Source: Paenibacillus sp. UNC499MF | Lineage (GTDB): Bacteria > Bacillota > Bacilli > Paenibacillales > NBRC-103111 | Length of the DNA stretch: 64,000 nucleotides | Assembly: GCF_900107975.1 (NCBI RefSeq) | Contig: NZ_FNVF01000009.1 | Coordinates: 62,001-126,000, forward strand | Reading direction: 5' to 3' | Shown: positions 10,201 through 55,296 of the stretch, one piece after another | Layout: each line of letters starts with the position of its first letter | How positions within the stretch are numbered: position 1 is the stretch's first letter | The notes under the pieces: generated by a model | What the model was told of the DNA's origin: nothing | The model's database searches: none | The model's input: only the letters and a program-made list of their open reading frames with translations | Translations under genes and position numbers: made by a program

Positions 10201-11985
10201 ACGTTTGCTCAGCAAAATGATCATGCGTACGGGATCGATCCGGGGCAGGGAGAGCATTATACCCGTCTGCTGCAAAGTTTGAAGGAAGCCGGCACAGTGC
10301 CGGAGCGTATTGTTCATGCTTGGCTGACCGGGGAGAGCGAACACACCGAGGGGTGGACCGCTTCCTGCAGCGCAAGGGTACTCGACAAGGGTTATCTCAG
10401 CCTTATTTCACTGACTCAGGCGATCGGGACTTGCGGACTGCAGGATGAACTGCAGCTATCGGTCATAACGTCGGGAATGCAAGAGGTGACAGGAGTGGAG
10501 CGGGTGCTGCCGGAACAAGCAACGGTGCTTGGGGCATGTCTGGTTATCCCGCAGGAATACGGCAATGTGCGCTGTCGAACCATCGATATAGCGGATTCGC
10601 CGGGGCAGGAGGACTCAGAACATCGGCAGCAAGCGCTATTGGGCCGGTTGCAGGCCGAATTAACCGCTTTTTCCGAGGAGATTTTCGTCGCGTATCGCGG
10701 TCCGAACCGCTGGGTGCAGACCTACGTTCCAATACCGCCCCCCGCGGCTGTCGAAGAAAATTTCGGCCTCAGGGAAGAGGGGGTATACCTGATAACCGGA
10801 GGCTTGGGCGGTATAGGAATGACCTTAGCGGAGCATCTGGCGAAGACCGTGAGAGCCAAGCTCATCCTTATCGGCCGATCGGGAATAAGGGAAGGAGCGG
10901 ATTGGCGCCACTATGCCGAACATACGACCGACGAAGCTCAGGCGATTCAGCTGCAAAAGCTCAAGGAGCTGGAGCAGGTTGGAGCCGAGGTACTGGTCTG
11001 CAAAGCGGATGTAAGCGACGAGCAGCAAATGGAGCAGGCCATAGCCCGGGCGCTCGACCGCTTCGGCACGATTCACGGCGTTATACACGCGGCCGGCACG
11101 CCCGATGGAGCGCTCATTCAGCGGCGCACCCGGGAAATTGAGGAGCATGCATTGGCGGCCAAGGTGAACGGCACGCGTGTCCTTGAGCGAGTGCTGGCCG
11201 GAAGGAAGCTGGACTTCCTCGTATTGTGCTCTTCTCTGACCAGCGTGCTGGGCGCTTTGGGCCAAGCGGGGTACTGCGCGGCCAATGCGTTTCTCGATGC
11301 TTATGCCTACCGCAAACGCGCGCTGGACGATACGCATGTGGTCGCGATTGATTGGGACGGGTGGCAAACCGTCGGAATGGCCGCGGCGGCTGAACAAGAA
11401 GTCGCCGTCGCTGCGGCTCAAGCGGGAGTGTCGGCACAAGGCCCGGACAAGCGGACCCGGCTGTTACCGGACGAAGGAATCGCCGTTTTCCGGCATGCAC
11501 TGGCTTGCGGTCTGCCCCAGGTAACGGTATCGACGACGGATTTGAGTTTGCGGCTGCATGCCGCCCGCACTTCATCCTTGCAATCTCTCGTGGATGGGGA
11601 GAAGAGCGGTCTATCCCGCACAACGGCACGTTCCGGCGTCAGCACGCCGTTTGCACCTTCGGAGGACGAACTGGAGCAGACTTTAACTGAGCTATGGCGT
11701 GACTATCTGGGTATCGATCAAGTCGGCCTGCATGATAACTTCTTCGAGCTGGGAGCCACCTCGCTCGATATGATTCAAATGAACTCCAAGCTCCAGCGTT
11801 CACTCCGGCAGGAAGTGTCAGTCGTTGACATGTTCAGCCATCCGACAATTCACGCACTCGCCGGGCTGCTGAGAAGATCGCAATCGGGAACCGCTCTGCA
11901 GCAAGAAGCGGCGGACCGTACAGAACTGATACAGGACGGAAAGAACAGGCTGCAGAAGCGGCTGCAAAAAAGGAATAGAACGTGA
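7252..11985 (+). CDS. Type I PKS module KS-AT-KR-ACP (statine-forming position)
   Basis: This is a single elongation module of 1577 residues. KS: DSACSTS (Cys about 185), EAHGTGT (His about 321) and NIGHLN (His about 359) are intact. AT at about 535-850 has GHSVGE and HAFH, the malonyl-CoA signature. KR at about 925-1400 has GGLGGIG near 1183 and a catalytic Tyr in GYCAAN near 1341; no LDD motif is seen. The ACP ends in GATSLDM (Ser about 1504). It follows the leucine-loading protein, so it should add malonate to leucyl-PCP and reduce the former leucine carbonyl, giving a 3-hydroxy-4-amino (statine-like) unit. That is inferred from colinearity. A good AGGAGG-like site precedes the ATG inside the upstream gene. 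The C-terminal tail is rich in Lys/Arg/Gln, possibly a docking element. Confidence 0.94.
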   Translation: MMTKSGQAQAATGLEIAVIGMAGRFPEARNIEEYWDNLRNGKESIHFFSDSELESAGIDPALIRNPKYVRAKGLLPDAEWFDSDFFDYSPREAEVIDPQLRIFHECAWEALEHAGYDTEQTSGAVGLFAGASSSIYWQLVAMLSRSESTAEQFAALALSDKDFLSTRISHKLNLKGTSVSVDSACSTSLLAIHLACRALLTGECRIALAGGVTVTVPRTEGYLYEEGMVSSPDGHCRAFDSNAKGTVGGEGAGVVVLKPLKQALADGDAVYAVIKGSAANNDGTRKMGYSAPSVEGQAEVIRAAQRMSRVAPESISYIEAHGTGTALGDPVEIEALKLAFQTDKTGFCRIGSVKTNIGHLNSAAGVAAFIKTVLALMHKQLPPSLHFEKPNPKIDFAGSPFIVNTELTDWTNELQPLRAGVSSFGIGGTNVHVVLEEAPPPAEETKGRDSQLLLLSAKTESGLEQATARFREYLRANPGVSLPDAAYTLQIGRRAFKHRRMLVSSSAEEALELLDSLPPERVYNHIGGSEQPRLVFMFPGQGAQYVNMGLDLYNHEPQFREAADRCFEIVRPLMDVDLKALMYPADSEAAEDHHNRLKQTDVTQPVMFIFSYALANLLIGWGLKPASMIGHSVGEYVAACLAGVMTLEEALELVVLRGKLMHSLPGGAMLSIPLPEQELLPFMNEGLSLAAVNGPAMCVVSGSYEAIELLEEKLDRKGQACTRLHTSHAFHSLMMEPAMEPFRLKLSGMKLQAAHIPYISNVSGGWITKEETVDPDYWVRHLRGTVRFADGLSELLHDDKAVFVEVGPGNTLSAFVRRHPDKKERHAVINLIRHVKEQVRDDYYLQQQVGRLWLEGARPNWKAFHANEKRRRTALPTYPFERRRYWVDPPFDTDVLKQGLVRKQTKEPIPQSAAGPVKKNAAREWLYTPIWERSLLNEAAGAAAGMNAKSTWLVFTPEHGIGSRLAARLQQEGHRVVSVYPSNTFAQQNDHAYGIDPGQGEHYTRLLQSLKEAGTVPERIVHAWLTGESEHTEGWTASCSARVLDKGYLSLISLTQAIGTCGLQDELQLSVITSGMQEVTGVERVLPEQATVLGACLVIPQEYGNVRCRTIDIADSPGQEDSEHRQQALLGRLQAELTAFSEEIFVAYRGPNRWVQTYVPIPPPAAVEENFGLREEGVYLITGGLGGIGMTLAEHLAKTVRAKLILIGRSGIREGADWRHYAEHTTDEAQAIQLQKLKELEQVGAEVLVCKADVSDEQQMEQAIARALDRFGTIHGVIHAAGTPDGALIQRRTREIEEHALAAKVNGTRVLERVLAGRKLDFLVLCSSLTSVLGALGQAGYCAANAFLDAYAYRKRALDDTHVVAIDWDGWQTVGMAAAAEQEVAVAAAQAGVSAQGPDKRTRLLPDEGIAVFRHALACGLPQVTVSTTDLSLRLHAARTSSLQSLVDGEKSGLSRTTARSGVSTPFAPSEDELEQTLTELWRDYLGIDQVGLHDNFFELGATSLDMIQMNSKLQRSLRQEVSVVDMFSHPTIHALAGLLRRSQSGTALQQEAADRTELIQDGKNRLQKRLQKRNRT

Positions 11986-11998
11986 AGGAGGTGGCAAG

Positions 11999-14900
11999 AT
12001 GAGTGCCGAGAACGAAAAGTACGGAGAAACCGGGTTGGAAATTGCCGTTATCGGAATGGCAGGAAGATTTCCGGGTGCGAAGAACCTCACGGAATTTTGG
12101 GAAAACTTGCGTGCCGGCAAGGAGTCGGTCACTTTTTTTACGGACGAGGAACTGGAGAAAGCGGGAATTGCCCCGGAGATACTCAAGCATCCCCAGTATG
12201 TAAAAGCCAAGTCCCAGATAGAGGACGTGGAGTCGTTCGATGCGCCGTTTTTTGAATACACGCCGCGGGAGGCCGAGCTGATCGATCCGCAGTTCCGTCT
12301 GTTCCACGAGTGCGCTTGGGAAGCGCTTGAGAATGCGGGACACCCTCCGGAAACGGAGGATCAGCTAATCGGGGTGTATGCAGGGGCTTCTCCCAACACC
12401 TATTGGGTCGCCAGCCAAGTTATGAACGCCGCACATGCCAGTGATCATTTTCAAATTCTGCAATTGAATAATCCTTCGTTCACGACGCGAATTTCATACA
12501 AGCTCAATCTGAAAGGTCCAAGCGTAAGCGTGCAAACGGCTTGCTCCACCTCTCTTGTATCCATCCACCTGGCTTGTCAGGGATTGCTGGCCGGGGAATG
12601 CGATCTTGCTTTGGCCGGAGGGGTTTCGATCAATTTGCCGCGCACGACCGGCTATCTCTACCAGGAAGGAATGATCCAGTCTCCCGACGGACACTGCCGG
12701 CCTTTTGACGAAGGCGCAGGCGGCACTTTGTTCGGTGACGGAATCGGAATCGTCGTGCTCAAGCGGCTCGCGGACGCCGTTAAGGACGGCGATACTATTC
12801 AAGCCGTTATCAAAGGCTCGGCGGTTAACAATGACGGCAGCCGGAAAGTAGGGTACACGGCGCCAAGCACGAACGGCCAGGTGGAAGTCATCCGCGCGGC
12901 CCATCAAATGGCGGAAGTTCACCCCGAAACTGTCGGGTACATTGAGGCGCACGGAACAGGGACTACGCTGGGGGACCCGATTGAAGTGGAAGCTCTGCAG
13001 GCTGCTTTCGCCTCGGACAAAAAGGGCTTTTGCAAAATCGGTTCGCTTAAATCCAATATCGGGCATCTCGACGCCGCGGCGGGAGTCGCGGGTTTTATCA
13101 AGACCGTGTTGGCGCTTAAGCATCAGCAAATCCCGCCAAGCCTTCATTTTCATAAACCGAATCCCAAAATCGATTTTGAAAACTCTCCTTTCAGAGTCAA
13201 TTCGGAGCTTAGCGATTGGAAAAGAACGGAAGGGCCTCTGCGAGCAGGAGTCAGCTCCTTCGGTATCGGGGGTACGAATGCCCACGTCATTCTGGAGGAG
13301 GCCCCGATTGGCGAGGCAAGCTCGGCGGGACGCGATCTGAAACTGCTCGTGCTCTCTGCCCGGACGGAGGAAGGATTGGAACGGGCGACTCGCAATCTCG
13401 GCGAGTTTCTGCGGACTTGTCCCGAAGCCGACTTGGCTGATGCGGCTTATACGCTGCAGACAGGACGCAAGCGGTTCCGCCACCGCAGAACACTGGTCTG
13501 CTCCGATGTCCGTGAAGCTTTAGAGCGTCTGAATGCTCCCGATGAAGGCAGCGTGCAAACGGGCGAGTCGGAGAGGGATCAGACCCGGGTTGTTTTCCTC
13601 TTCCCCGGACAGGGGTCGCAGTATGTGAATATGGGAGCCGATTTATACCGCAAAGAGCCTTTGTTCCGGGCGGAGATGGACCGCTGCTGCGAGATTATTA
13701 CGGCAGAGGGCGGCGCCGATCCCAGGCATGCACTGTACCGGGCTTCGGACAACGCGGCGGCTGCCGATGGGATCAACCGGACGGAAGCGGCGCAGCCGGC
13801 ATTATTCGCGTTCGAATATTCGCTCGCGCAGCTCCTGATGTCATGGGGCGTCAAGCCGGACGCAATGATCGGGCACAGTATCGGAGAGTATACGGCTGCG
13901 TGCCTGTCGGGTGTTCTGTCACTTAACGACGCGCTGAAACTCGTCACACTGCGCGGCAAGCTTATGCAGAGCCTGCCGGCAGGAGAGATGCTGAGCGTCT
14001 CTCTTGACGAAGCAAGTTTGGCGGAGCTGCTTCCGGAAGATCTGGCGCTGGCAGCCGTTAACGGACCCGAGCTCTGTGTCGTTTCCGGCCCTCATGCGGT
14101 CATCGCTTCCTTTGAAACCAAACTTGCCGGGCTGCAGGTGGCGCACCGAAAGCTTCATACGTCGCATGCGTTTCACTCGCCCATGATGGAGCCGATATTG
14201 GAGAAGTTTGCGGACAAAGTCAAGCAGGTCGTCCTATCCGCCCCGTTAATTCCGTATGTGTCCAATGTAACGGGTACATGGATTACGACGGAAGATGCCG
14301 CCGACCCCGCCTATTGGACCAGGCATTTGCGGGAAACGGTGCGGTTTGCCAGCGGGGCGGCCGAGCTGCTTAAGGAGAAGCCGGCCGTATTTTTAGAAAT
14401 CGGGCCCGGCAATGTTCTCAGCAGCTTTATCCGTAAACAACAGGGGAAAGACACGGAGCGGAAGCATGAAGTGCTCCATCTCGTCCGTCACCCGCACGAA
14501 CAGGCCGCGGATGATGCTTTCTTACTGGAGAAGCTAGGCAAACTGTGGATCGCGGGCGCGCGGATCGACTGGAAGGGGTTCTACCATTCGGAACGCCGCC
14601 GGCGGGTTGCTCTGCCGACTTATCCGTTCGAGCGCCAGCGGTATTCCGTTGAGGGCTCACAGCTCTCAGTGGGAAATACTCACGAGAGAACGGGTCAGCG
14701 GAGAATGACTCCTCCGGAAACGGAGACCCGAAGCGATACCGTCAAACAAACCCCAGCAGCCGCCCGCATGCAGTCTGTATCCTCTATTGAGCAGACGGTT
14801 GGGGACCTTGTCCAGCGTCATTTCGGATTCGCGGAGCTTGGGGTTAATGACAACTTTTTTGAAATCGGGGCAAGCTCGCTCGATATTTCCCAAATGGCCG

Positions 14901-17900
14901 ATAAGCTTGCGGGTGTACTGGGAAGGGAAGTGCCCGTAGTTACCTTGTATTCCTATCCCACCGTTCGAACCCTGGCGGCATTCTTGCGTGAAAACGGGCA
15001 GGAAAGGTCAGCGTCCGCCAGCACGGCAGTTGAAGACGAAACGGAACGCCGTAATGTCATTAACGAGGGAATGGCGCGTTCCGAGCGGATGCGGACCATA
15101 TCGGCCCAAGACAGGGGTCTGCCGGGAGCATGGGAACAAGCGGAACGTGAGGCGGCGGGGGAGAACGGACTTGAGATAGCGGTCATAGGCATGGCCGCCA
15201 GATTTCCGGGTGCGGACAGCATCGGCCAGTTCTGGAACAATTTGCGCGACGGCGTTGAGTCGATAACGTTCTTCACGGACGAAGAGCTGGTACAGGCAGG
15301 CGTCGACCCCCAGCTTGTATCCCATCCTTCTTATGTAAAAGCCAAAGGCGCTTTGAACGGAATCGATCAGTTCGATGCCGCGTTTTTCGGCTATTCACCG
15401 CGGGAAGCGCAGCTAATGGACCCGCAGCTGCGGCTGTTTCACGAATGCGCCTGGGAAGCGATCGAATCCGCCGCCTACAATCCCGACACTTATCCGGGAC
15501 TTATCGGCGTCTATGCGGGCGCGACTCCGAATCTGGAATGGGTTTCCCGCTTTGCGCCTGCTTTGGGCGGAACGGAACGATTCAGCGCCATGCTTCTTAA
15601 CGACAGGGAGTTTTTCAGCACCCAGCTGTCGTATAAACTCAATCTCCGGGGCCCCAGCATCTCCATGCAGACCGCTTGCTCCACATCCCTGGTTAATATC
15701 GTTCTGGCTTCGCAAGGTTTATTGGCGGGCGCGTGCGATATCGCTCTGGCCGGCGGTTCCACTGTCAGCGTACCCGACAAATCCGGTTATTTGTATGAAG
15801 ACGGTATGATTCAGTCACCCGACGGGCATTGCCGGGCCTTCGACGAGCAGGCGGCAGGAACTGTTTTCGGAGACGGAGTCGGTGTCGTCGTACTGAAACG
15901 GCTGAGCGATGCCATTGCGGACGGAGACGTCATCCACGCCGTTATCAAAGGCTTTGGCTTGAACAATGACGGCACCCGCAAGGTAGGCTTTACCGCTCCA
16001 AGCACAAAGGGGCAGGCCGAAGTCATTCGTGCCGCTCATCGGATGTCGGGTGTGGACCCGGAAAGCATCACTTATGTAGAGGCGCACGGAACAGGCACAA
16101 GCATGGGGGATCCCATTGAGATTGAGGCTTTAAAGGAAGCCTTCGGCTCCGATAAAAAGGGATTTTGCCGTATCGGCTCCGTCAAGACGAACGTCGGCCA
16201 TCTTAACAGCGCAGCCGGAGCGGCCGGATTTATCAAAACGGTATTGGCGCTCAAAGCGAAGCAAATTCCGCCGAGCCTGCATTATGAACGGGGAAATCCC
16301 AAGATTGATTTCGCCAACAGCCCCTTCGTCGTCAATACCGAACTGGCGCCTTGGGAAAGCAGCGGGCATCCTCTGCGCTCCGGAGTCAGCTCATTTGGCA
16401 TCGGCGGCACGAATGCGCACGTTATTCTCGAAGAAGCTCCGCCAAGAGAGCCGTCGGACGAAGGCCGGGCAGAGAAGCTGCTGCTCTTGTCGGCAAGAAC
16501 GCCCACGGCTTTGACGGAGGCGAAAGCACGTCTTGCCGCATTTTTGACAGAGAATCCGCAAGTTAATCTGGCAGATACGGCATATACGCTGCAAGCAGGC
16601 AGGAAGGCCTTTGAATGGAGAGCCGCCTTCGTGTGCAGGGGTGCGGAAGAAGCGATCGGCCTATTGACGTCGGACGGGTCCGGTAAAATTGCCGAGGGCC
16701 AGACGGGGGCGCAAACAAGCTCTGTTGTATTCATGTTCCCGGGCCAGGGATCGCAATACGTCGGCATGGGACGGGACCTCTACCTTAACGAACCTGCATT
16801 CAGGGAAGAACTTGATCGCTGCTTCGAGCTTCTTCAACCGTATGTACAAGTTGACCTAAATGCTGTCCTTTATGCCGGCGATCCGGACCGAGACGCGAGA
16901 GAGGAACTCCTGAAGCGGACGGATATCGCCCAGCCCGTGCTTTTTATGATCGAATACGCGTTTGCCAAGCTGCTTATACGCTGGGGCATCGAGCCCGAAG
17001 CGATGCTGGGCCACAGTATCGGCGAATATGTGGCAGCCTGTCTGGCGGGTGTATTCACGCTGGAAGATGCGCTGCAGCTCGTGGCGCTTCGCGGCCGGCT
17101 CATGCAGGGGCTGCCGGGGGGATCTATGCTCAGCGTGGCGATGCCGGAAGCGGAGCTGCGCCCGTTGCTGCCTGATCATCTTGCACTGGCGGCAGTCAAC
17201 AGCTCCTCCTTGTGCGTCGTATCCGGCCCATCGGCAGAGATCGATGCCTTCTCACGGCTGCTTGAAGACAAAGGCTGTGCCTGCCGTCTTCTTCACACAT
17301 CTCATGCCTTCCACTCTCATATGATGGATCCGATACTGGCGGCGTTTGCGGATAAAGTGCGCTCGATCCGGCTGCATGAGCCTGCACTGCCCTTTATTTC
17401 CAACGTTTCCGGCACGTGGATTACACCCCAAGAGGCTACGGATGAGCAGTATTGGGTCCGGCATTTGCGATCGACCGTGCGGTTTGCGGACGGGCTTGAG
17501 GAATTGTTGAAAAATCCGCGCTCCGTATTCATAGAAGCCGGTCCGGGCAATTCGCTCAGCACATTCGTACGCAAGCATGAAGCCGGTTCGCGCGACCGGA
17601 TAGTCGTAAATATGCTGAGACATCCCCAGGAAGCCGTTTCCGATACCGAGCATCTGTTGAACAAAATCGGCCGCCTCTGGCTGTCGGGTATCGACATCGA
17701 TTGGACGGGCTATTACGCCCGTGAGCGGCGCAGGCGCATTGAGCTGCCCACCTATCCGATGGAGCGCCAGCGCTATTGGCTCGATGATGAGCAGCAGCCG
17801 CTGGCGGGAGCGCGGCCGTCCTCAGCCCGAAGAGGCGGCAAAAATCCCGACATGTCGGAATGGTTCTATTATCCTTCCTGGGAACGCGCCCTGCTGGAGG

Positions 17901-19798
17901 AGTATCCGGGAGAAAGCCGTCAGAACAGTCATAACTGGCTTGTATTTAAAGATGACTGCGGGATCGCGGACGAACTTGCCGCAAGTGTTCAAAATAGAGG
18001 TGAGCGGACTGTAATCGTTAAGGCGGGCAGCGCCTTCATCGCTCATGAGAACGGAACGTTCACGCTTGTCCCGGGCTCTGCGGAGCATTACGTCCGGCTG
18101 CTGGAGGAACTGCAAAAGCGGGATTTCGTTCCCGACAAAGTCGCTCATCTGTGGAATGTTTCCTCCTCCGGGAAGGAAGAAGAGGAAATGGAACCTTCCG
18201 ATGCGCAAGCGGTTGAACGCCGCCAGCAACAAGAAGGTTACTACAGCCTGATCTATTTGGCTCAGGCGCTGCGCAAGCATAAGGTAGAGGAGATCCGTAT
18301 AGCAGTCGTGTCCTCGGGAATGCAGGAGGTAACGGGGACGGAGCCGCTGTCTCCGGGTAAAATGACGCTGCTCGGACCCTGTATGGTCATTCAGCAGGAA
18401 TACAGCGGGATTACATGTGTGAGTATCGATATCGATGTACAGGAAGAGACAAAGCACAAGCGGCGAATCGCCGGTAATGTCATCACGGAATTATCATCTC
18501 CGTCTTCGGATCTGTTAATCGCTTATCGGGGGAACTACCGGTGGGTTCAAAATTTCAAGCCGGTGGGACTGCGCCAGGCGGATAAACCGGCAGCTCCGTT
18601 CCGGGAGCAGGGTATATATCTGATTACGGGAGGGCTTGGAGGCATCGGGATGCTGACGGCAGAGTTCCTGGCGCGCAATTACGGCGCGCGGCTCATTCTT
18701 ACCGGACGTTCAAACTTTCCCGACAGGAAAGAATATACCCGTTACCTGGCCGAAAATGGAGAGGAGCATCCGCTTTCCCGAAAAATCAGACGTGTCCTGC
18801 AACTGGAAGAACTCGGCGCCGAGGTTACCTATATGCAGGCCGACTTGTCCAATGAAGAAGAGATGCGCCGGGTTTTCAAATTTATTGATCGCGAGTACGG
18901 CCGCCTTCATGGCGTCGTGCAGGCGGCGGGTCTTCCCGGCGGCGAATCTTTCCGCGCGATCGAGAATATCGTCGGGGACCAGTCCGACGAGCAGTTCCGC
19001 GCCAAAGTCCAGGGCTTGCAGACGCTGGGCAGGCTGATTGCCGACAGGGAGACAGAGATATGCATCCTGTTCTCCTCCATCGCCAGCATACTCGGTGGAC
19101 TCGGCTTCAGCGCTTATTCGGCCGCGAATTTGTATATGGATGCCTTTGCCCGCAAACAGAACCGGGCAGGCGGGACGAAATGGCTGTGCGTCAATTGGGA
19201 TGCGTGGGAGTTCTGGGAAGAACACCGCTCGACGATCGGAGAGTCGCTTGTCGAACTGGCGATAACGCCTGCCGAAGCGCCTGATCTGTTCCGCTACGTC
19301 TACAGCCCGTGCGGCAGCAGCCAAATCATCGTATCGACCGGAGATCTTCAGACGCGGATCGATCAATGGATTCGGCACGCGGGCAAGAAGGAAGACAGTC
19401 ACGCGGCAGGGGGCGCCTCATTCAGCAGGCCGGATCTAACTACACCTTACGCGGCGCCCCGCAATCGGGTCGAGAAGACGATCGCCGACGTGTGGAAACA
19501 ATTTTTCCGTATTGACGAGGTTGGTATCCACGACAATTTCTTCGATCTGGGAGCAAGCTCGCTGGATATGATTCAGGTGACCGCCAAATTAAATGAAGCG
19601 TTGAACGAAAGTATTGCCGTTGTTGATATGTTCACCTATCCGAGCATTCATGCCCTCGCTCAGCGCCTTACCCACAGCGAAGAAGACGAGGCGGAAGAGG
19701 CTGAAATGGAAAATCAGATGATCGACTCCGCCGCGAAGGGAAGAAAGCGGCAGCAGCAGCAAAAAGAAAAAAGACGCAAAGGAGAGGTCTTGCTATGA
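11999..19798 (+). CDS. Bimodular type I PKS: KS-AT-ACP-KS-AT-KR-ACP
   Basis: The protein has 2599 residues. Module 1: KS (QTACSTS, EAHGTGT, NIGHLD), AT at about 530-850 (GHSIGE, HAFH) and an ACP directly after the post-AT linker (GASSLDI, Ser about 959), so it has no reductive domain and its beta-ketone should remain. Module 2: KS from about 1055, AT at about 1575-1900 (GHSIGE about 1671, HAFH), KR at about 1950-2440 (GGLGGIG about 2210, AYSAAN about 2373) and ACP (GASSLDM, Ser about 2520). The AT-KR segment is the usual KR structural subdomain, not a DH, as no HxxxGxxxxP is present. Both ATs look malonyl-specific. The start has a strong AAGGAGGTG site 13 bases after the previous stop. The last four bases overlap the next gene (ATGA). 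The highly charged C-terminus (Arg/Gln/Lys/Glu-rich) may be a docking tail. Confidence 0.95.
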   Translation: MSAENEKYGETGLEIAVIGMAGRFPGAKNLTEFWENLRAGKESVTFFTDEELEKAGIAPEILKHPQYVKAKSQIEDVESFDAPFFEYTPREAELIDPQFRLFHECAWEALENAGHPPETEDQLIGVYAGASPNTYWVASQVMNAAHASDHFQILQLNNPSFTTRISYKLNLKGPSVSVQTACSTSLVSIHLACQGLLAGECDLALAGGVSINLPRTTGYLYQEGMIQSPDGHCRPFDEGAGGTLFGDGIGIVVLKRLADAVKDGDTIQAVIKGSAVNNDGSRKVGYTAPSTNGQVEVIRAAHQMAEVHPETVGYIEAHGTGTTLGDPIEVEALQAAFASDKKGFCKIGSLKSNIGHLDAAAGVAGFIKTVLALKHQQIPPSLHFHKPNPKIDFENSPFRVNSELSDWKRTEGPLRAGVSSFGIGGTNAHVILEEAPIGEASSAGRDLKLLVLSARTEEGLERATRNLGEFLRTCPEADLADAAYTLQTGRKRFRHRRTLVCSDVREALERLNAPDEGSVQTGESERDQTRVVFLFPGQGSQYVNMGADLYRKEPLFRAEMDRCCEIITAEGGADPRHALYRASDNAAAADGINRTEAAQPALFAFEYSLAQLLMSWGVKPDAMIGHSIGEYTAACLSGVLSLNDALKLVTLRGKLMQSLPAGEMLSVSLDEASLAELLPEDLALAAVNGPELCVVSGPHAVIASFETKLAGLQVAHRKLHTSHAFHSPMMEPILEKFADKVKQVVLSAPLIPYVSNVTGTWITTEDAADPAYWTRHLRETVRFASGAAELLKEKPAVFLEIGPGNVLSSFIRKQQGKDTERKHEVLHLVRHPHEQAADDAFLLEKLGKLWIAGARIDWKGFYHSERRRRVALPTYPFERQRYSVEGSQLSVGNTHERTGQRRMTPPETETRSDTVKQTPAAARMQSVSSIEQTVGDLVQRHFGFAELGVNDNFFEIGASSLDISQMADKLAGVLGREVPVVTLYSYPTVRTLAAFLRENGQERSASASTAVEDETERRNVINEGMARSERMRTISAQDRGLPGAWEQAEREAAGENGLEIAVIGMAARFPGADSIGQFWNNLRDGVESITFFTDEELVQAGVDPQLVSHPSYVKAKGALNGIDQFDAAFFGYSPREAQLMDPQLRLFHECAWEAIESAAYNPDTYPGLIGVYAGATPNLEWVSRFAPALGGTERFSAMLLNDREFFSTQLSYKLNLRGPSISMQTACSTSLVNIVLASQGLLAGACDIALAGGSTVSVPDKSGYLYEDGMIQSPDGHCRAFDEQAAGTVFGDGVGVVVLKRLSDAIADGDVIHAVIKGFGLNNDGTRKVGFTAPSTKGQAEVIRAAHRMSGVDPESITYVEAHGTGTSMGDPIEIEALKEAFGSDKKGFCRIGSVKTNVGHLNSAAGAAGFIKTVLALKAKQIPPSLHYERGNPKIDFANSPFVVNTELAPWESSGHPLRSGVSSFGIGGTNAHVILEEAPPREPSDEGRAEKLLLLSARTPTALTEAKARLAAFLTENPQVNLADTAYTLQAGRKAFEWRAAFVCRGAEEAIGLLTSDGSGKIAEGQTGAQTSSVVFMFPGQGSQYVGMGRDLYLNEPAFREELDRCFELLQPYVQVDLNAVLYAGDPDRDAREELLKRTDIAQPVLFMIEYAFAKLLIRWGIEPEAMLGHSIGEYVAACLAGVFTLEDALQLVALRGRLMQGLPGGSMLSVAMPEAELRPLLPDHLALAAVNSSSLCVVSGPSAEIDAFSRLLEDKGCACRLLHTSHAFHSHMMDPILAAFADKVRSIRLHEPALPFISNVSGTWITPQEATDEQYWVRHLRSTVRFADGLEELLKNPRSVFIEAGPGNSLSTFVRKHEAGSRDRIVVNMLRHPQEAVSDTEHLLNKIGRLWLSGIDIDWTGYYARERRRRIELPTYPMERQRYWLDDEQQPLAGARPSSARRGGKNPDMSEWFYYPSWERALLEEYPGESRQNSHNWLVFKDDCGIADELAASVQNRGERTVIVKAGSAFIAHENGTFTLVPGSAEHYVRLLEELQKRDFVPDKVAHLWNVSSSGKEEEEMEPSDAQAVERRQQQEGYYSLIYLAQALRKHKVEEIRIAVVSSGMQEVTGTEPLSPGKMTLLGPCMVIQQEYSGITCVSIDIDVQEETKHKRRIAGNVITELSSPSSDLLIAYRGNYRWVQNFKPVGLRQADKPAAPFREQGIYLITGGLGGIGMLTAEFLARNYGARLILTGRSNFPDRKEYTRYLAENGEEHPLSRKIRRVLQLEELGAEVTYMQADLSNEEEMRRVFKFIDREYGRLHGVVQAAGLPGGESFRAIENIVGDQSDEQFRAKVQGLQTLGRLIADRETEICILFSSIASILGGLGFSAYSAANLYMDAFARKQNRAGGTKWLCVNWDAWEFWEEHRSTIGESLVELAITPAEAPDLFRYVYSPCGSSQIIVSTGDLQTRIDQWIRHAGKKEDSHAAGGASFSRPDLTTPYAAPRNRVEKTIADVWKQFFRIDEVGIHDNFFDLGASSLDMIQVTAKLNEALNESIAVVDMFTYPSIHALAQRLTHSEEDEAEEAEMENQMIDSAAKGRKRQQQQKEKRRKGEVLL

Positions 19799-22700
19799 GC
19801 ATATCGAGCGGTACAGAGTATAACGGGTCGGAAATTGCCGTAATCGGCATGTCGGGCAGGTTTCCGGGAGCCAAAAACTTGCGGGAATATTGGAATAACC
19901 TCTGCAGCGGCAAAGAGAGTATATCTTTTTTCAGTGATGAAGAGCTGTTGGAAGAGGGCATCGATATAAATGCGGTGACTCACCCCAATTATGTGAAGGC
20001 CAAGGGAGTACTCGATGATCTCGAGTACTTCGATCCCGAATTTTTCGATTATACGCCTCGCGAAGCGGAGCTTATGGACCCGCAGTTCCGCCTTATGCAC
20101 GAATGTTCCTGGGAAGCGCTCGAACAAGCGGGTTATGATCCCAGAACGTATAAAGGCTCGATCGGGTTATATGCGGGCGCGGCCTTCAATTCCAACTGGT
20201 TCATGCGCGCATTCAAGGGGCTGGGGACGGCGGAGGAATCCGCTACCCTGGAGACGGCTATGCTCAATTTGCGCGATTATATGGCCACGCTCGTTTCTTA
20301 TAAGCTCAATATGAAGGGACCGAGCTTTACGGTGCAGACGGCTTGTTCGACTTCGCTTGTTGCCATTCACCTTGCTTGTCAAAGTCTCCTCAGCGGGGAG
20401 TGCGGCATGGCGCTGGCCGGCGGCGTGTCGATACAACTGCCCAAGAAAGCCGGTTATTTCTATCAGGAAGGGATGATTAATTCGCCCGACGGGCACTGCC
20501 GGGCTTTCGACGAGAAAGGGGCGGGCACCGTCTTCGGTGAAGGCGCCGGGATTGTCGTCTTGAAACCGCTGGAGGATGCGCTCGCGGACGGCGACCATAT
20601 ATATGCCGTAATTAAAGGCTCGGCGATCAATAACGACGGTAGCCGGAAAGTAGGCTATACCGCTCCCAGCACTTCAGGCCAGGCGTCCGTAATCCGTGCC
20701 GCTCATCATATAGCTGAGGTGGAGCCGGAAAGCATCTCCTATATTGAAGCGCACGGTACAGGTACGACACTTGGTGATCCGATCGAAATCGAAGCATTGA
20801 AAACCGCTTTTCAAACGGACAAAAAGAAATACTGCGGCATCGGCTCCGTTAAATCCAATATCGGGCATCTAAACAACGCAGCAGGAGTAGCCGGGTTCAT
20901 AAAGACGGTGCTCGCTCTGGCCCATAAACAGCTGCCGCCTACGCTTCATTATGAACGCCCGAATCCCAAAATCGACTTTGAGAACAGTCCGTTCTTTGTC
21001 AATGACCGGTTAAGAGACTGGACCAACGATTCCTTCCCTCTTCGGGCAGGCGTCAGCTCATTCGGCATCGGCGGCACGAATGCCCACGTTGTCCTGGAGG
21101 AAGCGCCGCCTGCTTCCGCTTCTTCCCGGGGCAGGTCGGCGCAGCTCATCTCTTTGTCGGCCAAGACGGAAGCATCGCTCGACAGACTGACGGAGCGGAT
21201 AGCGCAGCATTTGCAGGAGCATCCGGAAGTATGCTTGGCCGACATGGCCTATACGCTCCATGAGGGACGGGCGGCTTTCCCGCACCGCAGGACACTCGTC
21301 TGCGGCAGCGCGGGTGAAGCGGCCGTAAGGCTGGCTGAGCCGGGATCGCCCGATGTTCAGAACGGACTTGCCCCTGCCGATGAGCAGCCGGTCGTATTCA
21401 TGTTTTCCGGCCAAGGCTCGCAGTACGCCGGAATGGGCAGGGAGTTGTATGAGCAGGAGCCGGCGTTTCGCGAGGAGGCGGACCACTGCTTCGATCTGAT
21501 GCCCGATGAGATCCGCCATGTGGCGAAGCGGGTTCTGTATCCCTCCGCCGATGAGCCGGATACGCCGCTGATTAACCGGACTGACATTGCCCAGCCGGTC
21601 CTGTTTACGGTCGAATATGCGCTCGCCAGACTCATGATGAAATGGGGCGTGCAGCCGCAAGCCATGATCGGGCACAGCATCGGTGAATACGTCGCCGCAT
21701 GTCTGGCAGGCGTCTTCTCGCTGGAGGATGCGGTGCGGCTCGTAACTCTTCGCGGTCAATTGATGCAGAGCCTGCCAGGCGGTGTCATGCTGAGCGTCCC
21801 GCTGACCGAGCAGGAGGTTCTTCCGCTGCTGTCCGGCGGGGTATCGCTGGCTTCGGTGAATGCTCCTTCCATGTGCGTTGTTTCCGGCACTCCGGAAGCG
21901 GTCGCTTCATTGGCGGGTTCCTTGGAAGAGAAAGGAGTCGAATGCAGCCGTCTCCACACGTCGCACGCCTTCCATTCCGCCATGATGGAACCGATTCTGG
22001 AATCGTTTGAGCGCGAGGTAGGCAAGCTTGTGCTGAAAGCACCGCAGCTGCCCTTTATATCCAATGTCACGGGATCTTGGATTCAGGATGAGCAGGCAAT
22101 CAGTTCCGCTTATTGGGCACAGCACCTGCGCGGCACGGTAAAGTTCTCGGACGGGCTCGGCACTCTGATGAACGAAATGGACGCAGCGTTTGTAGAGGTA
22201 GGCGGAGGCAATGCCCTGACCGCATTTGCGAAGAGTCATTATGAATTTTTCAAAAAGTCGGCCGGTGCCAAAAATGAGCCTGTTATGGTGAACCTCCTGC
22301 GGCATCCGAAGCAGAAAACATCCGATATCGCTTACCTGCTCCTTCAAGTGGGGCGCTTATGGAATGCGGGTGTAAAAATAAATTGGACCCGCTTTTACGG
22401 GGAAGAGAAACGAAACCGTATTCCTTTGCCGACTTATCCGTTTGACCGCCGTCGTTACTGGCTTGATGAGGAGGGAATCCGGATCGTCCACTCCGATTCG
22501 CCGGGTAAGAAGACAGGACAAAACGCCATTACCGAGCGGGATGACCGGACAGCGACGCAGAAAGGGGTATCCGAACCAAGCAGTCCGCTGGAAGAGACGC
22601 TGGCCGGCATATGGCGCAATCTGTTCGGCTTGGAGCAAATCGGCGTTCATGAGGATTTCTTCGAAATAGGCGGGCATTCTTTGAAAGCGACCAGTCTGAT

Positions 22701-25700
22701 CACTAAGATTCACAGGGAACTCGATGTGGAGCTGGCTCTGTCGGATATTTTTAACATGCCGACCATAAGTGCGCTTGCCCGTTATATCGGGCAGACGGCT
22801 AAAAATAAATATTTAGCTATCGAACCGGCCGAAAGCAAACCTTACTACCGCTTGTCCTCCGCACAAAAGCGCACGTTCCTCATTCACCAGCAAATCGGCC
22901 CGGTAACCACCTACAACATGCCGATGGCTTTGTGGGTGTACGGAAAAGCGGAAGCGGACCGTTTTGAGCAGGCTTTCATTAAATTGATTCAGCGTCATGA
23001 GAACATGCGCACCTCGTTTCATATGGTAGACGGAGAACCGGTCCAGCGTATTCATGAGAGCTTCACGTTTACCGTTGAACGCATGGAAGCGGACGAGGAA
23101 GATTTAAAGAAAATCATGCGGAAATTTATCAGGCCGTTTGATCTGGGCAAAGCCCCTCTTATCCGCGCCGCTTTTGTCCGAATAGAGCCGGAGAAACATG
23201 TGCTGTTTATGGATATGCACAATATTGTTTCGGACGGCGCTTCAATGAATGTGTTTATTAAGGAATTCAGCGATCTGTATGCTGGAAACGAACTCCCGCC
23301 TCTGCGCATTCAATATAAGGATTTCGCGGAATGGCAGCACCGCCTGCTGGACGGGGACGTTATCCGGAAGCAAGAGGAGTATTGGATGAACCAGTTCCGG
23401 CACACAATTCCCGTGCTGAACATGCCGTATGACTTCGAGAGGCCCGAATTCCAGTCCTTTGTCGGCAGGGCGCACAAGATCCGTTTGTCCAAGGAAACCG
23501 CAGACCGGCTGAATGCTTTGGCCAAATCGCAGAATGTTACGATTAATGTCCTCTTGTTTCATCTATACACGATTGTGCTGCACGAATATACCGGCCAGAG
23601 CGACATTACGGTCGGCTCGCTGGTGGCAGGCAGGCGGCATGCCGACGTGGAGCCTTTAATAGGCATGTTCACGAACTTCCTGCCGATCCGGGTCCGGTTC
23701 CAAGACCGGCTTAGTCTTCTCGACCAACTGCAACTTCTGAATGACACGATGATGAACGCCTATGAGAATCAAGACTTCCCGTTCGACCGGATGGTGGAGA
23801 AGCTCTCGGCGAAATTACCGCGCGGACGTAATCCTCTTTTTGATACCATGATGATTTTCCACAATGAATTTGATGGAGAGACCGTGCTTACCGCCGAAGG
23901 ACTCACTTTCGAGAACTTTGAAATTACGAAAGGTATTTCCAAGCTTGATTTCAAACTCGATATCGGCTTTGCGGATAATGGCGGTCTGCTCTGTGTCTTG
24001 CAGTACAACACCGCTTTGTTCGAAGAAGCTACCATGGCGGGACTGATGGGGCATTTTACGGATCTGATTGAACTGGCTCTGGACAACCCCGCTCTCGAAT
24101 TGAGAGAAATCCGGCTGTTCACCGAAGAGCAGGAGTCTGAAGCGGCGGCAAAAAGAAGCAGTTCGCTGCCGGAGCGTGTCTTTACGGTAACGGCCGTCTC
24201 TACCTTTACTGCGGACCCGATCCGCCCTTATGTCAGCTGGTGGGGAGAGCAGTTCGGAACACGGGTTGACATCCGTTTCGCACCGTATCAGCAGGTGTTT
24301 CAAGAGCTATTGAATCCGGACAGCTCCTTCTCGTCCGAAGAGGCTGCGGGACTGCTGCTCGTCCGTTTCGAAGATTGGCTGCGGGATGACCGCTCTCCGG
24401 AGGCCCGGCAGATTAAAAAGCTTGAACGGGCACTGGCCGATCTGCTGCAGACTTTATCCGCAGGCCGGAGAACGGGCCCTTTATTCGCCGGAGTGTTCCC
24501 CGTATCCGCTCCACCAGGAGCTTCTCCGGTCATGGAGAGCTACCTGGAAGAGCTCGGAAATCGCTGGAAGCGCGAATTGGAACGGCTGGATCATGTTCAG
24601 GTTATCGATTTCAGAGAGCTTGACGCCGTGTTCGGCATTGAACACATGCACGATTCCGCTGCCGATCAAGCTGCACATATGCCGTTCACGTCGGAAGCTT
24701 ATGCGGCTATCGGCACCCTTACCGCCCGTCGTCTGCTCGCTTGGCAGGGACACCCGTTCAAAGTGATTGCCGTGGATTGCGATAACACTCTGTGGCACGG
24801 GGTGTGCGGGGAAGACGGGGCTGCAGGAGTGACGGCTTCGGAGCCTTACCGCGAGTTCCAGCGGTATCTGTTGAACAAGCAGCAGGAAGGCATGCTTCTG
24901 GTGCTCGTCAGCAAAAATAATGAAGCGGATGTGTGGAATGTACTCGAGCATAACCCGGACATGCTGCTTAAAAAAGAGCATTTTGCGGGAACGCGGATCA
25001 ATTGGAACTCAAAATCCGAAAACTTGCTTTCGCTGGCGGAAGAACTGGGGTTAGGACTGGACAGCTTTATTTTCATCGATGACAGTTCGCTGGAATGTTC
25101 CGAAGTACAGCTGCAGTGCCCGGAAGTTCTTACGCTTCAGCTCCCTGAAGAGCGGCTGATCCCGGCATTCCTGGAGCATATCTGGGCAACGGACCGTCTG
25201 CGTGTTACGGAAGAGGATAAAAGGAGAACCGAAATGTATGTCTCGGAGCGCACGCGCAAACAAATTCGTTCTACGACTTCCTCTCTGCAGGCTTTTCTCG
25301 ACGAGCTGGATCTTAAAATGGGCATTTACGAAGCGGCTGCCGAACAACTGCCCCGCATAGCCCAACTGACGCAGCGCACCAATCAATTCACGCTGAACGC
25401 CGATACAAGAGCAGAGAGTGAACTGGAAGCCATGCGGGCTGAACCGGATACGAAATGCTGGGCGATTGAAGCCTCAGACCGGTTCGGACATTACGGACTG
25501 ACAGGGGCGGTTATAACGCGATGCGAGAAAGACGTCGTTCATCTGGATGTCTTCCTGCTAAGCTGCCGCATTCTAGGCAGAGGGATCGAGTCGGCCGTGA
25601 TCAGTTCTTTGAAGGCTTACTGCCGTGAACGGAAGGCCGAATATGTGGAGGCAGTGTGCGCAATTACCGGGAAAAATGAGCCGCTGCTCGCATTTTTCAG

Positions 25701-26292
25701 AAGGGGACCGTGGAGCGTCACGGAAGAGTCCGGCCGCAGGGTGCGCTTCCGGGTCGCGGTAAAGGATATCCCTGATTCTATCAAGCATATAGAAATCCTT
25801 AACGAGCCTCTGCCCCGCGCAGGACTGACTCAATCTCAGCTTTCCGGACGTGAAAATCAAGTAGAAGCGAGCAGCGCCGCAGGTACGGCGCGAAGTTTAG
25901 AAAGAACGGATTGGGCGGAAACTCTAAGCGGCAGCGGGCGTGAAAACCAGCAGCATTACCGTCATTTGCTTCCGCTGCAGTATTCGGACGCTTCCAGGCT
26001 GCTCCAGATTCCGGTGAGGGAGATAGAGGAGAGCGAGGCTCAAAGAGCTCCGTACCGGGCTCCGTCCAATGAGACAGAGGCAGCCTTAGTGCAAATTTGG
26101 GAACGGGTGCTCGGGATCGGCGGCATCGGAATTGACGACGATTTTTTCCGGCTGGGCGGAACGTCCCTTCACGCCGTTCGGGTCGAGATCGAAATGGAGA
26201 AACAAGGTTTGTCGGCGGAAGGACAGCAATTATTCAACTATCGGACGATTCATCAATTGAGTCCGTTCATTCGAATTTCCGTCATGGAATGA
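19795..26292 (+). CDS. Terminal PKS/NRPS hybrid: KS-AT-ACP-C(HN variant)-FkbH-ACP
   Basis: The protein has 2165 residues. KS at about 12-440 and AT at about 530-850 (GHSIGE, HAFH: malonyl) are followed directly by an ACP (GGHSLKA, Ser about 962). There is no KR, so a beta-ketoacyl chain is expected. A C domain spans about 1000-1440, but its HHxxxDG reads HNIVSDG: the catalytic second His is Asn at residue 1143 (AAT, 23221-23223). Next is a long-form FkbH region: an N-terminal alpha/beta part at about 1455-1640, a HAD-IIIC core with DCDNT near 1661, the QLTQRTNQF motif and SCRILGR near 1923. A carrier follows with GGTSLHA (Ser about 2124). FkbH domains are known to load glyceryl from 1,3-bisphosphoglycerate onto carriers. 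No thioesterase follows; the operon ends here at a terminator. The C domain may have a non-amide or non-catalytic role. Confidence 0.94.
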   Translation: MSISSGTEYNGSEIAVIGMSGRFPGAKNLREYWNNLCSGKESISFFSDEELLEEGIDINAVTHPNYVKAKGVLDDLEYFDPEFFDYTPREAELMDPQFRLMHECSWEALEQAGYDPRTYKGSIGLYAGAAFNSNWFMRAFKGLGTAEESATLETAMLNLRDYMATLVSYKLNMKGPSFTVQTACSTSLVAIHLACQSLLSGECGMALAGGVSIQLPKKAGYFYQEGMINSPDGHCRAFDEKGAGTVFGEGAGIVVLKPLEDALADGDHIYAVIKGSAINNDGSRKVGYTAPSTSGQASVIRAAHHIAEVEPESISYIEAHGTGTTLGDPIEIEALKTAFQTDKKKYCGIGSVKSNIGHLNNAAGVAGFIKTVLALAHKQLPPTLHYERPNPKIDFENSPFFVNDRLRDWTNDSFPLRAGVSSFGIGGTNAHVVLEEAPPASASSRGRSAQLISLSAKTEASLDRLTERIAQHLQEHPEVCLADMAYTLHEGRAAFPHRRTLVCGSAGEAAVRLAEPGSPDVQNGLAPADEQPVVFMFSGQGSQYAGMGRELYEQEPAFREEADHCFDLMPDEIRHVAKRVLYPSADEPDTPLINRTDIAQPVLFTVEYALARLMMKWGVQPQAMIGHSIGEYVAACLAGVFSLEDAVRLVTLRGQLMQSLPGGVMLSVPLTEQEVLPLLSGGVSLASVNAPSMCVVSGTPEAVASLAGSLEEKGVECSRLHTSHAFHSAMMEPILESFEREVGKLVLKAPQLPFISNVTGSWIQDEQAISSAYWAQHLRGTVKFSDGLGTLMNEMDAAFVEVGGGNALTAFAKSHYEFFKKSAGAKNEPVMVNLLRHPKQKTSDIAYLLLQVGRLWNAGVKINWTRFYGEEKRNRIPLPTYPFDRRRYWLDEEGIRIVHSDSPGKKTGQNAITERDDRTATQKGVSEPSSPLEETLAGIWRNLFGLEQIGVHEDFFEIGGHSLKATSLITKIHRELDVELALSDIFNMPTISALARYIGQTAKNKYLAIEPAESKPYYRLSSAQKRTFLIHQQIGPVTTYNMPMALWVYGKAEADRFEQAFIKLIQRHENMRTSFHMVDGEPVQRIHESFTFTVERMEADEEDLKKIMRKFIRPFDLGKAPLIRAAFVRIEPEKHVLFMDMHNIVSDGASMNVFIKEFSDLYAGNELPPLRIQYKDFAEWQHRLLDGDVIRKQEEYWMNQFRHTIPVLNMPYDFERPEFQSFVGRAHKIRLSKETADRLNALAKSQNVTINVLLFHLYTIVLHEYTGQSDITVGSLVAGRRHADVEPLIGMFTNFLPIRVRFQDRLSLLDQLQLLNDTMMNAYENQDFPFDRMVEKLSAKLPRGRNPLFDTMMIFHNEFDGETVLTAEGLTFENFEITKGISKLDFKLDIGFADNGGLLCVLQYNTALFEEATMAGLMGHFTDLIELALDNPALELREIRLFTEEQESEAAAKRSSSLPERVFTVTAVSTFTADPIRPYVSWWGEQFGTRVDIRFAPYQQVFQELLNPDSSFSSEEAAGLLLVRFEDWLRDDRSPEARQIKKLERALADLLQTLSAGRRTGPLFAGVFPVSAPPGASPVMESYLEELGNRWKRELERLDHVQVIDFRELDAVFGIEHMHDSAADQAAHMPFTSEAYAAIGTLTARRLLAWQGHPFKVIAVDCDNTLWHGVCGEDGAAGVTASEPYREFQRYLLNKQQEGMLLVLVSKNNEADVWNVLEHNPDMLLKKEHFAGTRINWNSKSENLLSLAEELGLGLDSFIFIDDSSLECSEVQLQCPEVLTLQLPEERLIPAFLEHIWATDRLRVTEEDKRRTEMYVSERTRKQIRSTTSSLQAFLDELDLKMGIYEAAAEQLPRIAQLTQRTNQFTLNADTRAESELEAMRAEPDTKCWAIEASDRFGHYGLTGAVITRCEKDVVHLDVFLLSCRILGRGIESAVISSLKAYCRERKAEYVEAVCAITGKNEPLLAFFRRGPWSVTEESGRRVRFRVAVKDIPDSIKHIEILNEPLPRAGLTQSQLSGRENQVEASSAAGTARSLERTDWAETLSGSGRENQQHYRHLLPLQYSDASRLLQIPVREIEESEAQRAPYRAPSNETEAALVQIWERVLGIGGIGIDDDFFRLGGTSLHAVRVEIEMEKQGLSAEGQQLFNYRTIHQLSPFIRISVME

Positions 26293-26365: not shown

Positions 26366-26466
26366 GGTAATTATAGGATAATGGTTGCGCTTGTTGGAAA
26401 TACATTAATATACAATTGTGCATTACGCTGGATAATATATTCGTTAAAGGAGTGGATGGTAAATAT

Positions 26467-27636
26467 ATGAATAAAAATCTGATAGATTACGTTTATTCAC
26501 AAGTGACGATTAAGGAAGGGAAAAAAGTAATCGAGAACGTTCTTCTGGATATTTATTTCAAACCGGGCATTTCCACCAAAGAGATTGCCAGAAAAACGCT
26601 GCTGCCCCTGCCGCTTGTGTCCGCAATTAAAAAAGAGCTGATTAAGGTTGCCCTCATCGAACAAAAACGGGGAGTAAACTGCACCGCTAGAGGAAACCGC
26701 TTTGTCGAGCAAACGATGGGGTTCGGCCATTTGGATCATGATCTGTATAAGCGCTTGAAATACGAGCAGTGGCAGCCTGAAGAGCTGAAGGACATGATGA
26801 CCGGGCTGGAGAGCGTCTTTGAGGGACGGCCTCAGGTCGATGTTACGATTGACCAGTCGCGCTGCACGCTGGCTACGAGCATGAACCGGGCTGTTCTGGC
26901 GCTTCGTCATGAAGCTCTGATCGGCAGAGACATCGTTTGTCTTGGGGACGATGATATCGTCAGCGTATCGCTGGCATTTCTGCTGAAGCAGCTTTACCGT
27001 AATGATCCCTCCAAGTCGAACACCCGTATTCACGTATTCGAAATCGATAAACGTATTACCGGCTACATAAACTATCTGGCGGAAAAAGAAGATTTGCCGA
27101 TCGTCTGCCACGAAACGGATTTTCGCGAACAGCTTCCGTCCGAATTTTTGCACCGCTTCGATTGCGTGTTCACCGATCCCCCTTATACACAGCAGGGGAT
27201 GTCATTGTTCGTCTCCCGCGGAATTCAATTGCTGAAACGGGATGTAGGACTCCCTATCTTCCTGTCGTTCGCCCACAAGTCACCTGACTTCACCTTGGCG
27301 ATGCAGCGCGAATTTGCCAATATGGGCTTGTTCGTGACCAGTGTCCTGCCTCGATTCAATGAATATATCGGTGCGGAAATTATTGGTAACACAAGCCAGA
27401 TGATTGTGTTACAATCTACTGAAGAGACGCATGAAAGCATCGAGCGTGAATACAGACAGGCGCTGTATACCGGTGAAGTGAAACGTACGATTCGCTCATA
27501 CGAGTGCAAACGCTGTAACCGCGTGACCGAAGTCGGCTTTCAAATGCAGTGGCAAACGATCGAGCAGTTGAAGAAAGAGGGCTGCCCCGGCTGCCGTTAC
27601 GAGACTTTCGAGCTCATTCAAAAAAAGAACGCATAA
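26467..27636 (+). CDS. bpsA: BpsA-family branched-chain polyamine (aminopropyl) synthase
   Basis: The protein has 389 residues from the ATG at 26467, preceded by AAAGGAGTGG; an upstream in-frame TTG at 26416 has no such site. An N-terminal winged-helix-like part (about 10-80) is followed by a Rossmann methyltransferase-like fold with the acidic GDDDIVS motif near 160-167 and FTDPPYT, both typical of BpsA (DUF43). The C-terminus has two CxxC pairs (CKRC and CPGC), a likely zinc site. BpsA enzymes add aminopropyl groups from decarboxylated S-adenosylmethionine to the inner nitrogen of spermidine, giving branched polyamines. It opens a compact operon with a GNAT, an FkbH and an ACP. It may therefore supply a polyamine building block for the metabolite, or it may be the cell's ordinary polyamine gene; the context favours the former only moderately. 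Confidence 0.85.
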   Translation: MNKNLIDYVYSQVTIKEGKKVIENVLLDIYFKPGISTKEIARKTLLPLPLVSAIKKELIKVALIEQKRGVNCTARGNRFVEQTMGFGHLDHDLYKRLKYEQWQPEELKDMMTGLESVFEGRPQVDVTIDQSRCTLATSMNRAVLALRHEALIGRDIVCLGDDDIVSVSLAFLLKQLYRNDPSKSNTRIHVFEIDKRITGYINYLAEKEDLPIVCHETDFREQLPSEFLHRFDCVFTDPPYTQQGMSLFVSRGIQLLKRDVGLPIFLSFAHKSPDFTLAMQREFANMGLFVTSVLPRFNEYIGAEIIGNTSQMIVLQSTEETHESIEREYRQALYTGEVKRTIRSYECKRCNRVTEVGFQMQWQTIEQLKKEGCPGCRYETFELIQKKNA

Positions 27637-27661
27637 GAACGCAGATTGGAGTTACAGCAAG

Positions 27662-29138: not shown

Positions 29139-29141
29139 ACG

Positions 29142-29396: not shown

Positions 29397-29427
29397 ATTG
29401 CAGCAGGCAGCAGAAGACATAGACTTT

Positions 29428-29475
29428 AAATACCATGATTAAGCGGGGCTTATTCCTGCTTTGTTATGGTATTTT
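29428..29475 (+). terminator. Rho-independent terminator after the BpsA-GNAT-FkbH-ACP operon
   Basis: A two-part stem, AAATACCAT with ATGGTATTT outside and AAGCGGG with CCTGCTT inside, is followed by a run of T. It lies about 30 bases past the ACP stop and ends that operon. Confidence 0.88.
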
Positions 29476-55293: not shown

Positions 55294-55296
55294 CCG

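Follow-up and report, generated by a model that had tools for sequence, protein, structure and literature searches.

A terminal condensation domain that has exchanged its second histidine for asparagine in an amicoumacin-type assembly line of Paenibacillus

Introduction

What does a condensation (C) domain do when the second His of its HHxxxDG motif is gone, the rest of the domain is preserved, and the domain sits near the end of the last protein of an assembly line, next to FkbH? The question is raised by a 64,000-nucleotide stretch of DNA from Paenibacillus sp. UNC499MF (contig NZ_FNVF01000009.1, positions 62,001 to 126,000), hereafter called the window. An earlier note on this DNA had described the second His as the established catalytic base. 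That the residue has been replaced is correct, but its standing was put too firmly: its role as general base is a debated point (PMC11546977). A His-to-Ala exchange abolishes the activity of AmbB (PMC8968710), and in the ester-forming BurF the exchange His2992Ala abolishes ester formation (PMC12304814). The ORF18 C domain of streptothricin, which reads HQxxxDM, is active (PMC11546977). A second His that has been removed naturally, with the loss fixed across Paenibacillus, Bacillus, Paludifilum, and one Chloroflexota genome, provides a natural test of the role of this long-debated residue.

An asparagine in a complete C domain

The replacement lies in the gene at 19795-26292. Specifically, window positions 23218-23238 read CAC AAT ATT GTT TCG GAC GGC, in frame with this ORF, and specify HNIVSDG (local translation MDMHNIVSDGA). 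CAC occupies 23218-23220 and AAT, encoding Asn, occupies 23221-23223, just as first reported. The motif corresponds to residues 1142-1148 of a 2165-aa protein, making the Asn Asn1143. The features are:

22846..24135, plus strand: C domain, residues 1018-1447 (PF00668; AF2 model; structural match to the TycC C domain 2jgp)
23218..23238, plus strand: HNIVSDG motif, HHxxxDG with the second His replaced by Asn (Asn in 19/19 domains of the clade, His in 75/75 outside it)
23221..23223, plus strand: codon AAT of Asn1143 (sequence read; AAT in orthologues)

The domain, here called C(HN), scores 353.5 bits against PF00668 (cut-off 30.6), and the match spans the whole domain and places it in the superfamily. 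HH is kept by six other complete C domains in the window (motif positions 3649, 44354, 47477, 50675, 59795, and 62972), not five as previously counted. The gene at 4599-7262 begins with a half-C, the C-terminal half of a C domain, without the motif region. A sequencing error, a strain-specific mutation, and chance are ruled out as explanations for the Asn: its codon is AAT in 9/9 Paenibacillus orthologues from separate assemblies, and neighboring codons vary synonymously.

The last protein of an amicoumacin-type line

By identity and gene order, the gene encodes the terminal PKS (AmiM) of an amicoumacin-family line predicted to make a dihydroisocoumarin. Its product shows 48-54% full-length identity to AmiM of Bacillus inaquosorum KCTC 13429, Bacillus pumilus, and Paludifilum. 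Compared with AmiM of Bacillus subtilis 1779/B. inaquosorum KCTC 13429 (48% identity over 2162 aa), the gene order, the domain order, and the HN motif are the same. The domain order is KS-AT-ACP-C(HN)-NEX-FkbH-ACP, in which the name NEX is taken from PMC12304814:

19795..26292, plus strand: amiM homologue, 2165 aa, last PKS protein of the amicoumacin-type line (Pfam/NCBIfam domains; AmiM identity and synteny)
19831..21099, plus strand: ketosynthase (KS), TACSTS active site present (PF00109/PF02801)
21394..22233, plus strand: cis acyltransferase (AT) (PF00698)
22597..22788, plus strand: first acyl carrier, ACP1 (PF00550; translation)
24136..24759, plus strand: NEX-like N-terminal extension of the FkbH unit (position and homology to C-NEX-FkbH fusions)
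24760..25701, plus strand: FkbH, predicted glyceryl-loading HAD/acyltransferase, with DCDNTLW and LSCRILGRG motifs (TIGR01686)
26077..26283, plus strand: terminal carrier ACP2 (LGGTS), after which the protein ends (domain search; translation)

The KS, AT, and C domains all score far above their Pfam cut-offs. No KR lies between the AT and ACP1, so the chain reaches ACP1 as a beta-ketoacyl group. FkbH is, by its score (273.4 bits against a TIGR01686 cut-off of 146.65) and its HAD Asp and Cys motifs, a predicted glyceryl-loading domain. The nucleophile Asp and the Cys motif are intact in 16/16 HN proteins, and the carrier Ser is present in ACP2. The adjoining FkbH singled out by the earlier note is indeed there, but it belongs to the ordinary AmiM architecture.

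The genes leading up to amiM in the window are:

1..4602, plus strand: amiI homologue, 3' part (the gene starts upstream of the window), ending with a complete HH C domain
4599..7262, plus strand: amiJ homologue, half-C, A, PCP
7252..11985, plus strand: amiK homologue, KS-AT-KR-ACP
11999..19798, plus strand: amiL homologue, KS-AT-ACP-KS-AT-KR-ACP

Homologues of AmiB, D, E, F, G, H, I, J, K, L, and M are present in order, and the synteny with the amicoumacin cluster of B. inaquosorum KCTC 13429, B. pumilus, and Paludifilum holds gene by gene. Eight other genomes of Paenibacillales share the cluster from the NRPS through the genes after amiM. The KR pattern of the last four PKS modules is +,-,+,-, which is what a dihydroisocoumarin requires. 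The upstream stretch encodes a BtrH_N/C39-like protein, an N-acylating NRPS, an S12 peptidase, a type II thioesterase, a 3-hydroxyacyl-CoA dehydrogenase, a separate FkbH, an ACP, and an acyl-CoA dehydrogenase; a separate FkbH (AmiF) accompanies the dehydrogenases for hydroxymalonyl-ACP in every cluster examined. The AmiJ adenylation code, obtained by simple pattern extraction, is DAWTLTNVV in Paenibacillus versus DAQSIANVQ in Bacillus. Thus, the Paenibacillus product is probably an amicoumacin relative and need not be amicoumacin itself.

Published tables list AmiM merely as a (type I) PKS (PMC12366304, PMC7649127). In the published work considered, no enzyme is assigned to ring closure and release in amicoumacin lines, and the C-NEX-FkbH-ACP third of AmiM goes unmentioned. 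Among the openly available main texts searched, none pairs amicoumacin with FkbH; the architecture may be drawn elsewhere.

A single origin for the HN motif

In a curated comparison, Asn occupies the position in 19/19 terminal C domains of the amicoumacin-type family, and His occupies it in 75/75 other C domains. A scan of 84,980 species genomes with a four-sequence C-domain alignment, which relied on two peptide patterns (YKD[FY]AEW and FDTMMIF) that diverged HN domains could escape, yielded 75 loci. The 16 closest are all HN, and the remaining 59, at no more than 44% identity, are all HH. The HN loci come from nine Paenibacillus, Paludifilum halophilum, B. inaquosorum, B. pumilus (two), B. 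stratosphericus, B. safensis, and Tengunoibacter (Chloroflexota), and NEX-FkbH-carrier comes after the HN domain in every one (16/16). Other Paenibacillales C-FkbH fusions retain HH. A DNA pattern for D-[ILMF]-H-N-[IVM]-x-x-D-G, run on two evenly drawn samples (398 genomes of the class and 398 of the phylum, Bacillota), matched no C domain outside the HN clade in either sample; the other matches are not C domains. A literature search on "HNxxxDG" returned nothing. Across the genomes compared, HN is thus no peculiarity of one gene: the terminal C domains of amicoumacin-type lines all share it as a fixed trait.

A phylogeny of HN variants, which the earlier note had put forward as a check, was built from 100 C domains. 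All 19 HN rows group together in a single clade (SH-aLRT 100), nested (SH-aLRT 88) with seven of the eight Paenibacillales HH C-FkbH rows and with L120, L124, and L145, the only other FkbH-linked hits of the genome collection. The nesting implies that the domain derives from an FkbH-linked C lineage. Within this tree of HN rows, Paenibacillales C-FkbH rows, and collection hits, C(HN) thereby shows the kinship with C domains placed before FkbH/NEX that would be expected of an ester former of the SgcC5, VioA, or BurF type. By this topology, the His-to-Asn change arose once, through a single C-to-A codon change, in an ester-former-like lineage. The earlier note had named a clade of active C domains with HN as a finding that would count against its interpretation. 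Half of that has been found: an HN clade exists, and it lies within product-forming lines.

Further features set the clade apart. Its core motifs carry clade-specific co-substitutions, such as a T in place of V ahead of the C5 motif Asn and an L in place of P within GxPxAGR. Seven HH C-FkbH modules (L055, L056, L063, L064, L067, L124, and L145) have another C domain next, so the chain continues there; a further C domain follows 0/16 HN modules. The split of HH and HN by position is imperfect, as at least one HH module (L058) likewise ends its protein.

A conserved domain that fits no condensing class

Among four close Paenibacillus species, dN/dS for C(HN) is 0.074, lower than in the two HH C domains encoded by the amiI homologue (0.130 and 0.104); the KS, AT, and FkbH values are 0.039, 0.151, and 0.147, all of them pairwise NG86 averages and not a formal test. 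The AF2 model of C(HN) (mean pLDDT 88.8, pTM 0.85) has the two-lobed CAT-like fold, and its best solved structural match is the TycC C domain 2jgp (TM 0.91, 39% identity). The fold is thus predicted to be intact. Judged by dN/dS, C(HN) is kept by strong purifying selection and is not decaying, as the earlier note had surmised from the conservation of the rest of the domain. Decay as the main reading is ruled out by the dN/dS of 0.074, the intact FkbH motifs, and the pLDDT of 88.8.

With Asn in place of the second His, HNIVSDG lacks both the hallmark of canonical C domains and the catalytic residue of ester-forming ones, and on this motif C(HN) ought not to be classed among the active condensing domains. 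The DxxxxD motif of Cy-type domains is likewise absent. The feature that C(HN) does possess is that of the X domains of glycopeptide NRPSs, namely, an altered HHxxxDG in a terminal C fold, which in X domains is a platform for recruitment. X domains recruit P450s. By contrast, no P450 is recognized among the cluster genes scanned with Pfam, and C(HN) retains the DG of the motif.

Three further comparisons are instructive. In the C-FkbH-T modules of vioprolide and corramycin, and in the C-NEX of BurF, an ester or glycerate has been proposed or shown (PMC8949500, PMC10099666, PMC12304814). The vioprolide, cystomanamide, and corramycin modules, likened to C(HN) by architecture and not by C motif state, also place a C domain directly before an FkbH unit and a carrier; unlike in the amicoumacin lines, glycerate enters the product and chain growth goes on. 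The terminal C-NEX-T-Red of BurF shares the succession of C, NEX, and carrier, the beta-ketoacyl donor, and the position at the line end, but in BurF HH is kept and needed, the catalytic parts of FkbH are lost, and a reductase domain is present (PMC12304814). ORF18 resembles C(HN) in having an amide side chain in place of the second His and differs in its soluble aminoglycoside acceptor and in having no adjacent FkbH.

What the domain may do

We tentatively propose, with a probability of roughly 0.45, that C(HN) is a repurposed terminal domain that no longer condenses but keeps the finished chain in place for cyclization and offloading beside FkbH-ACP2. The notion is that C(HN) would bind ACP1 bearing the finished beta-ketoacyl chain, and would probably dock ACP2/FkbH, but would have given up joining the chain, with the help of a base, to the glyceryl group on ACP2. 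Its part would be to hold and shape the chain during aromatization and lactonization to the dihydroisocoumarin. Loss of the His would prevent wasteful ester transfer to glyceryl-ACP2. Offloading could perhaps be aided by the BtrH/C39-like AmiC or by a type II thioesterase. BtrH, of butirosin biosynthesis, transfers an acyl group from a carrier to an acceptor.

Points that we count for this holding role are the division between the 16 closest loci (HN) and the other 59 (HH), the nested clade, the dN/dS, the co-substitutions, and the intact fold. Others come from the products and from known proteins. Three amino acids and five malonates account for the modules of the known amicoumacin line (PMC4894447), and a glycerate unit has no place among them. 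A prediction based on domain order would wrongly add a glycerate that known amicoumacin does not contain. Further evidence comes from Xenorhabdus bovienii (X. bovienii), an amicoumacin producer that lacks amiC and in which AmiL-M is a fused protein of 3419 aa (PMC5055758); B. subtilis AmiL and AmiM are 2514 and 2142 aa (PMC7649127). By these published lengths, the fusion lacks about 1,240 aa, which matches C-NEX-FkbH-ACP in size, and the tail is apparently absent. Finally, the effect of the His-to-Ala exchange in BurF is counted on the same side.

Other features fit less easily. If the tail is indeed absent from X. bovienii, as the protein sizes indicate, ring formation can proceed without C(HN). 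The intact FkbH and ACP2 suggest that glyceryl-ACP2 has a use, for which a holding role by itself gives no account; AmiC offers a lead. Through positioning, the Asn could still aid catalysis, by analogy with HQxxxDM in ORF18, and, with an AmiJ code differing from that of Bacillus, glycerate might be incorporated in the Paenibacillus product. A scaffold role and altered catalysis both fit the sequence.

These considerations bear on a reading that we judge somewhat unlikely: C(HN) may still form an ester, with the Asn hydrogen-bonding or positioning the glyceryl hydroxyl, such that the chain passes to glyceryl-ACP2. The ester would then be lost on lactonization in amicoumacin lines or, in Paenibacillus, be kept or lead to a tetronate-like end. 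The ancestral C-NEX-FkbH-T context, as in vioprolide, corramycin, and BurF (PMC8949500, PMC10099666, PMC12304814), speaks for ester formation, as do the FkbH motifs and carrier Ser, the beta-ketoacyl donor supplied by a preceding module without a KR, and the activity of ORF18 (PMC11546977). BurF, however, forms no ester once its His is changed to Ala (PMC12304814), and a hydroxyl, a poorer nucleophile than an amine, should need the base more. In addition, glycerate is absent from known amicoumacins, and the further C domain found after seven HH C-FkbH modules is found after none of the 16 HN modules. Tetronate release (beta-ketoacyl plus glyceryl-ACP, Dieckmann) fits the architecture, but amicoumacin has no tetronate and the His is gone; we keep it only as part of the ester-forming alternative.

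A bolder version of the holding role, which we consider unlikely, is that C(HN) represents a new functional class: a terminal, non-condensing chamber that would fold the ACP1-bound beta-ketoacyl chain to the dihydroisocoumarin and release it via glyceryl-ACP2 and AmiC. If so, this release route has not been described before.

It is doubtful that the tail is instead a built-in generator of glyceryl-ACP, for example for hydroxymalonyl-ACP or for AmiC transfer, with C(HN) as an inert linker. The intact FkbH and ACP2 motifs are as expected of a generator, as is the BtrH_N/C39-like AmiC, which in Tengunoibacter is fused right after ACP2; X. bovienii is without both amiC and, by protein size, the tail (PMC5055758). 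Yet every cluster examined already has the separate AmiF, the C domain is conserved more strongly than FkbH, which would not be expected of a mere linker, and AmiC, present in Bacillus and Paludifilum, has only a distant homologue in Paenibacillus.

Very unlikely is transfer of the chain to a soluble nucleophile, such as water or an amine (a polyamine, for instance), that could react without a base, in the manner of VibH or ORF18. A BpsA_C gene (26416-27636) does follow amiM in the Paenibacillus clusters, and ORF18 acts on a soluble amine without a canonical second His (PMC11546977), but Bacillus HN lines carry amiN/amiO in place of BpsA and make lactones without polyamine. A tie between HN and polyamine release is disfavored for the same reason, as the Bacillus HN lines have no BpsA_C. 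Least probable of all is that the tail is a disappearing relic, tolerated as something dispensable for the pathway: in X. bovienii it was apparently lost or never present, and amicoumacin contains no glycerate, but the dN/dS of C(HN) lies under that of the HH C domains in the same cluster, HN is fixed across Paenibacillus, Bacillus, Paludifilum, and one Chloroflexota genome, and the fold is predicted with high confidence.

Other features of the clusters

Apart from the AmiJ code, the Paenibacillus clusters differ from the Bacillus AmiM cluster in the genes after amiM. Bacillus has the amiN kinase and amiO phosphatase, both missing from Paenibacillus, which has at 26416-32012 a BpsA_C protein (branched polyamine synthase-like), a GNAT acetyltransferase (possibly for self-resistance; compare AmiS/PamZ), a second separate FkbH, and a DMFA2_C/laminin-G protein, all absent from Bacillus there. 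The distant AmiC homologue, BtrH_N/C39-like, lies upstream of the amiA homologue (L044 2147-3184; contig C11 46147-47184). In Tengunoibacter (L116), the AmiC-like domain forms the C-terminal 389 aa of AmiM, directly behind the terminal carrier.

The split into a full C at the end of amiI and a half-C in amiJ (residues 27-268) also occurs in B. inaquosorum and Paludifilum, and a similar full-C/half-C pair lies on contig C33 of the same genome. Elsewhere in the collection, L208 6971-13963 (G176) and L042 5887-11070 (G102) encode KS-T-C(HH)-NEX-FkbH proteins with separate AT genes. In the L208 protein, no domain is recognized past the FkbH carrier, and with this architecture the product could end in a tetronate-type group or an ester.

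Next to the amicoumacin-type cluster, the minus strand at 33306-34610 encodes an erythromycin esterase family protein, adjoined by an MFS transporter and a TetR regulator. A second NRPS/PKS cluster occupies 41903-64000 of the window, with three CAAX-protease (Rce1-like) genes at 54421-56909 between its megasynthase genes.
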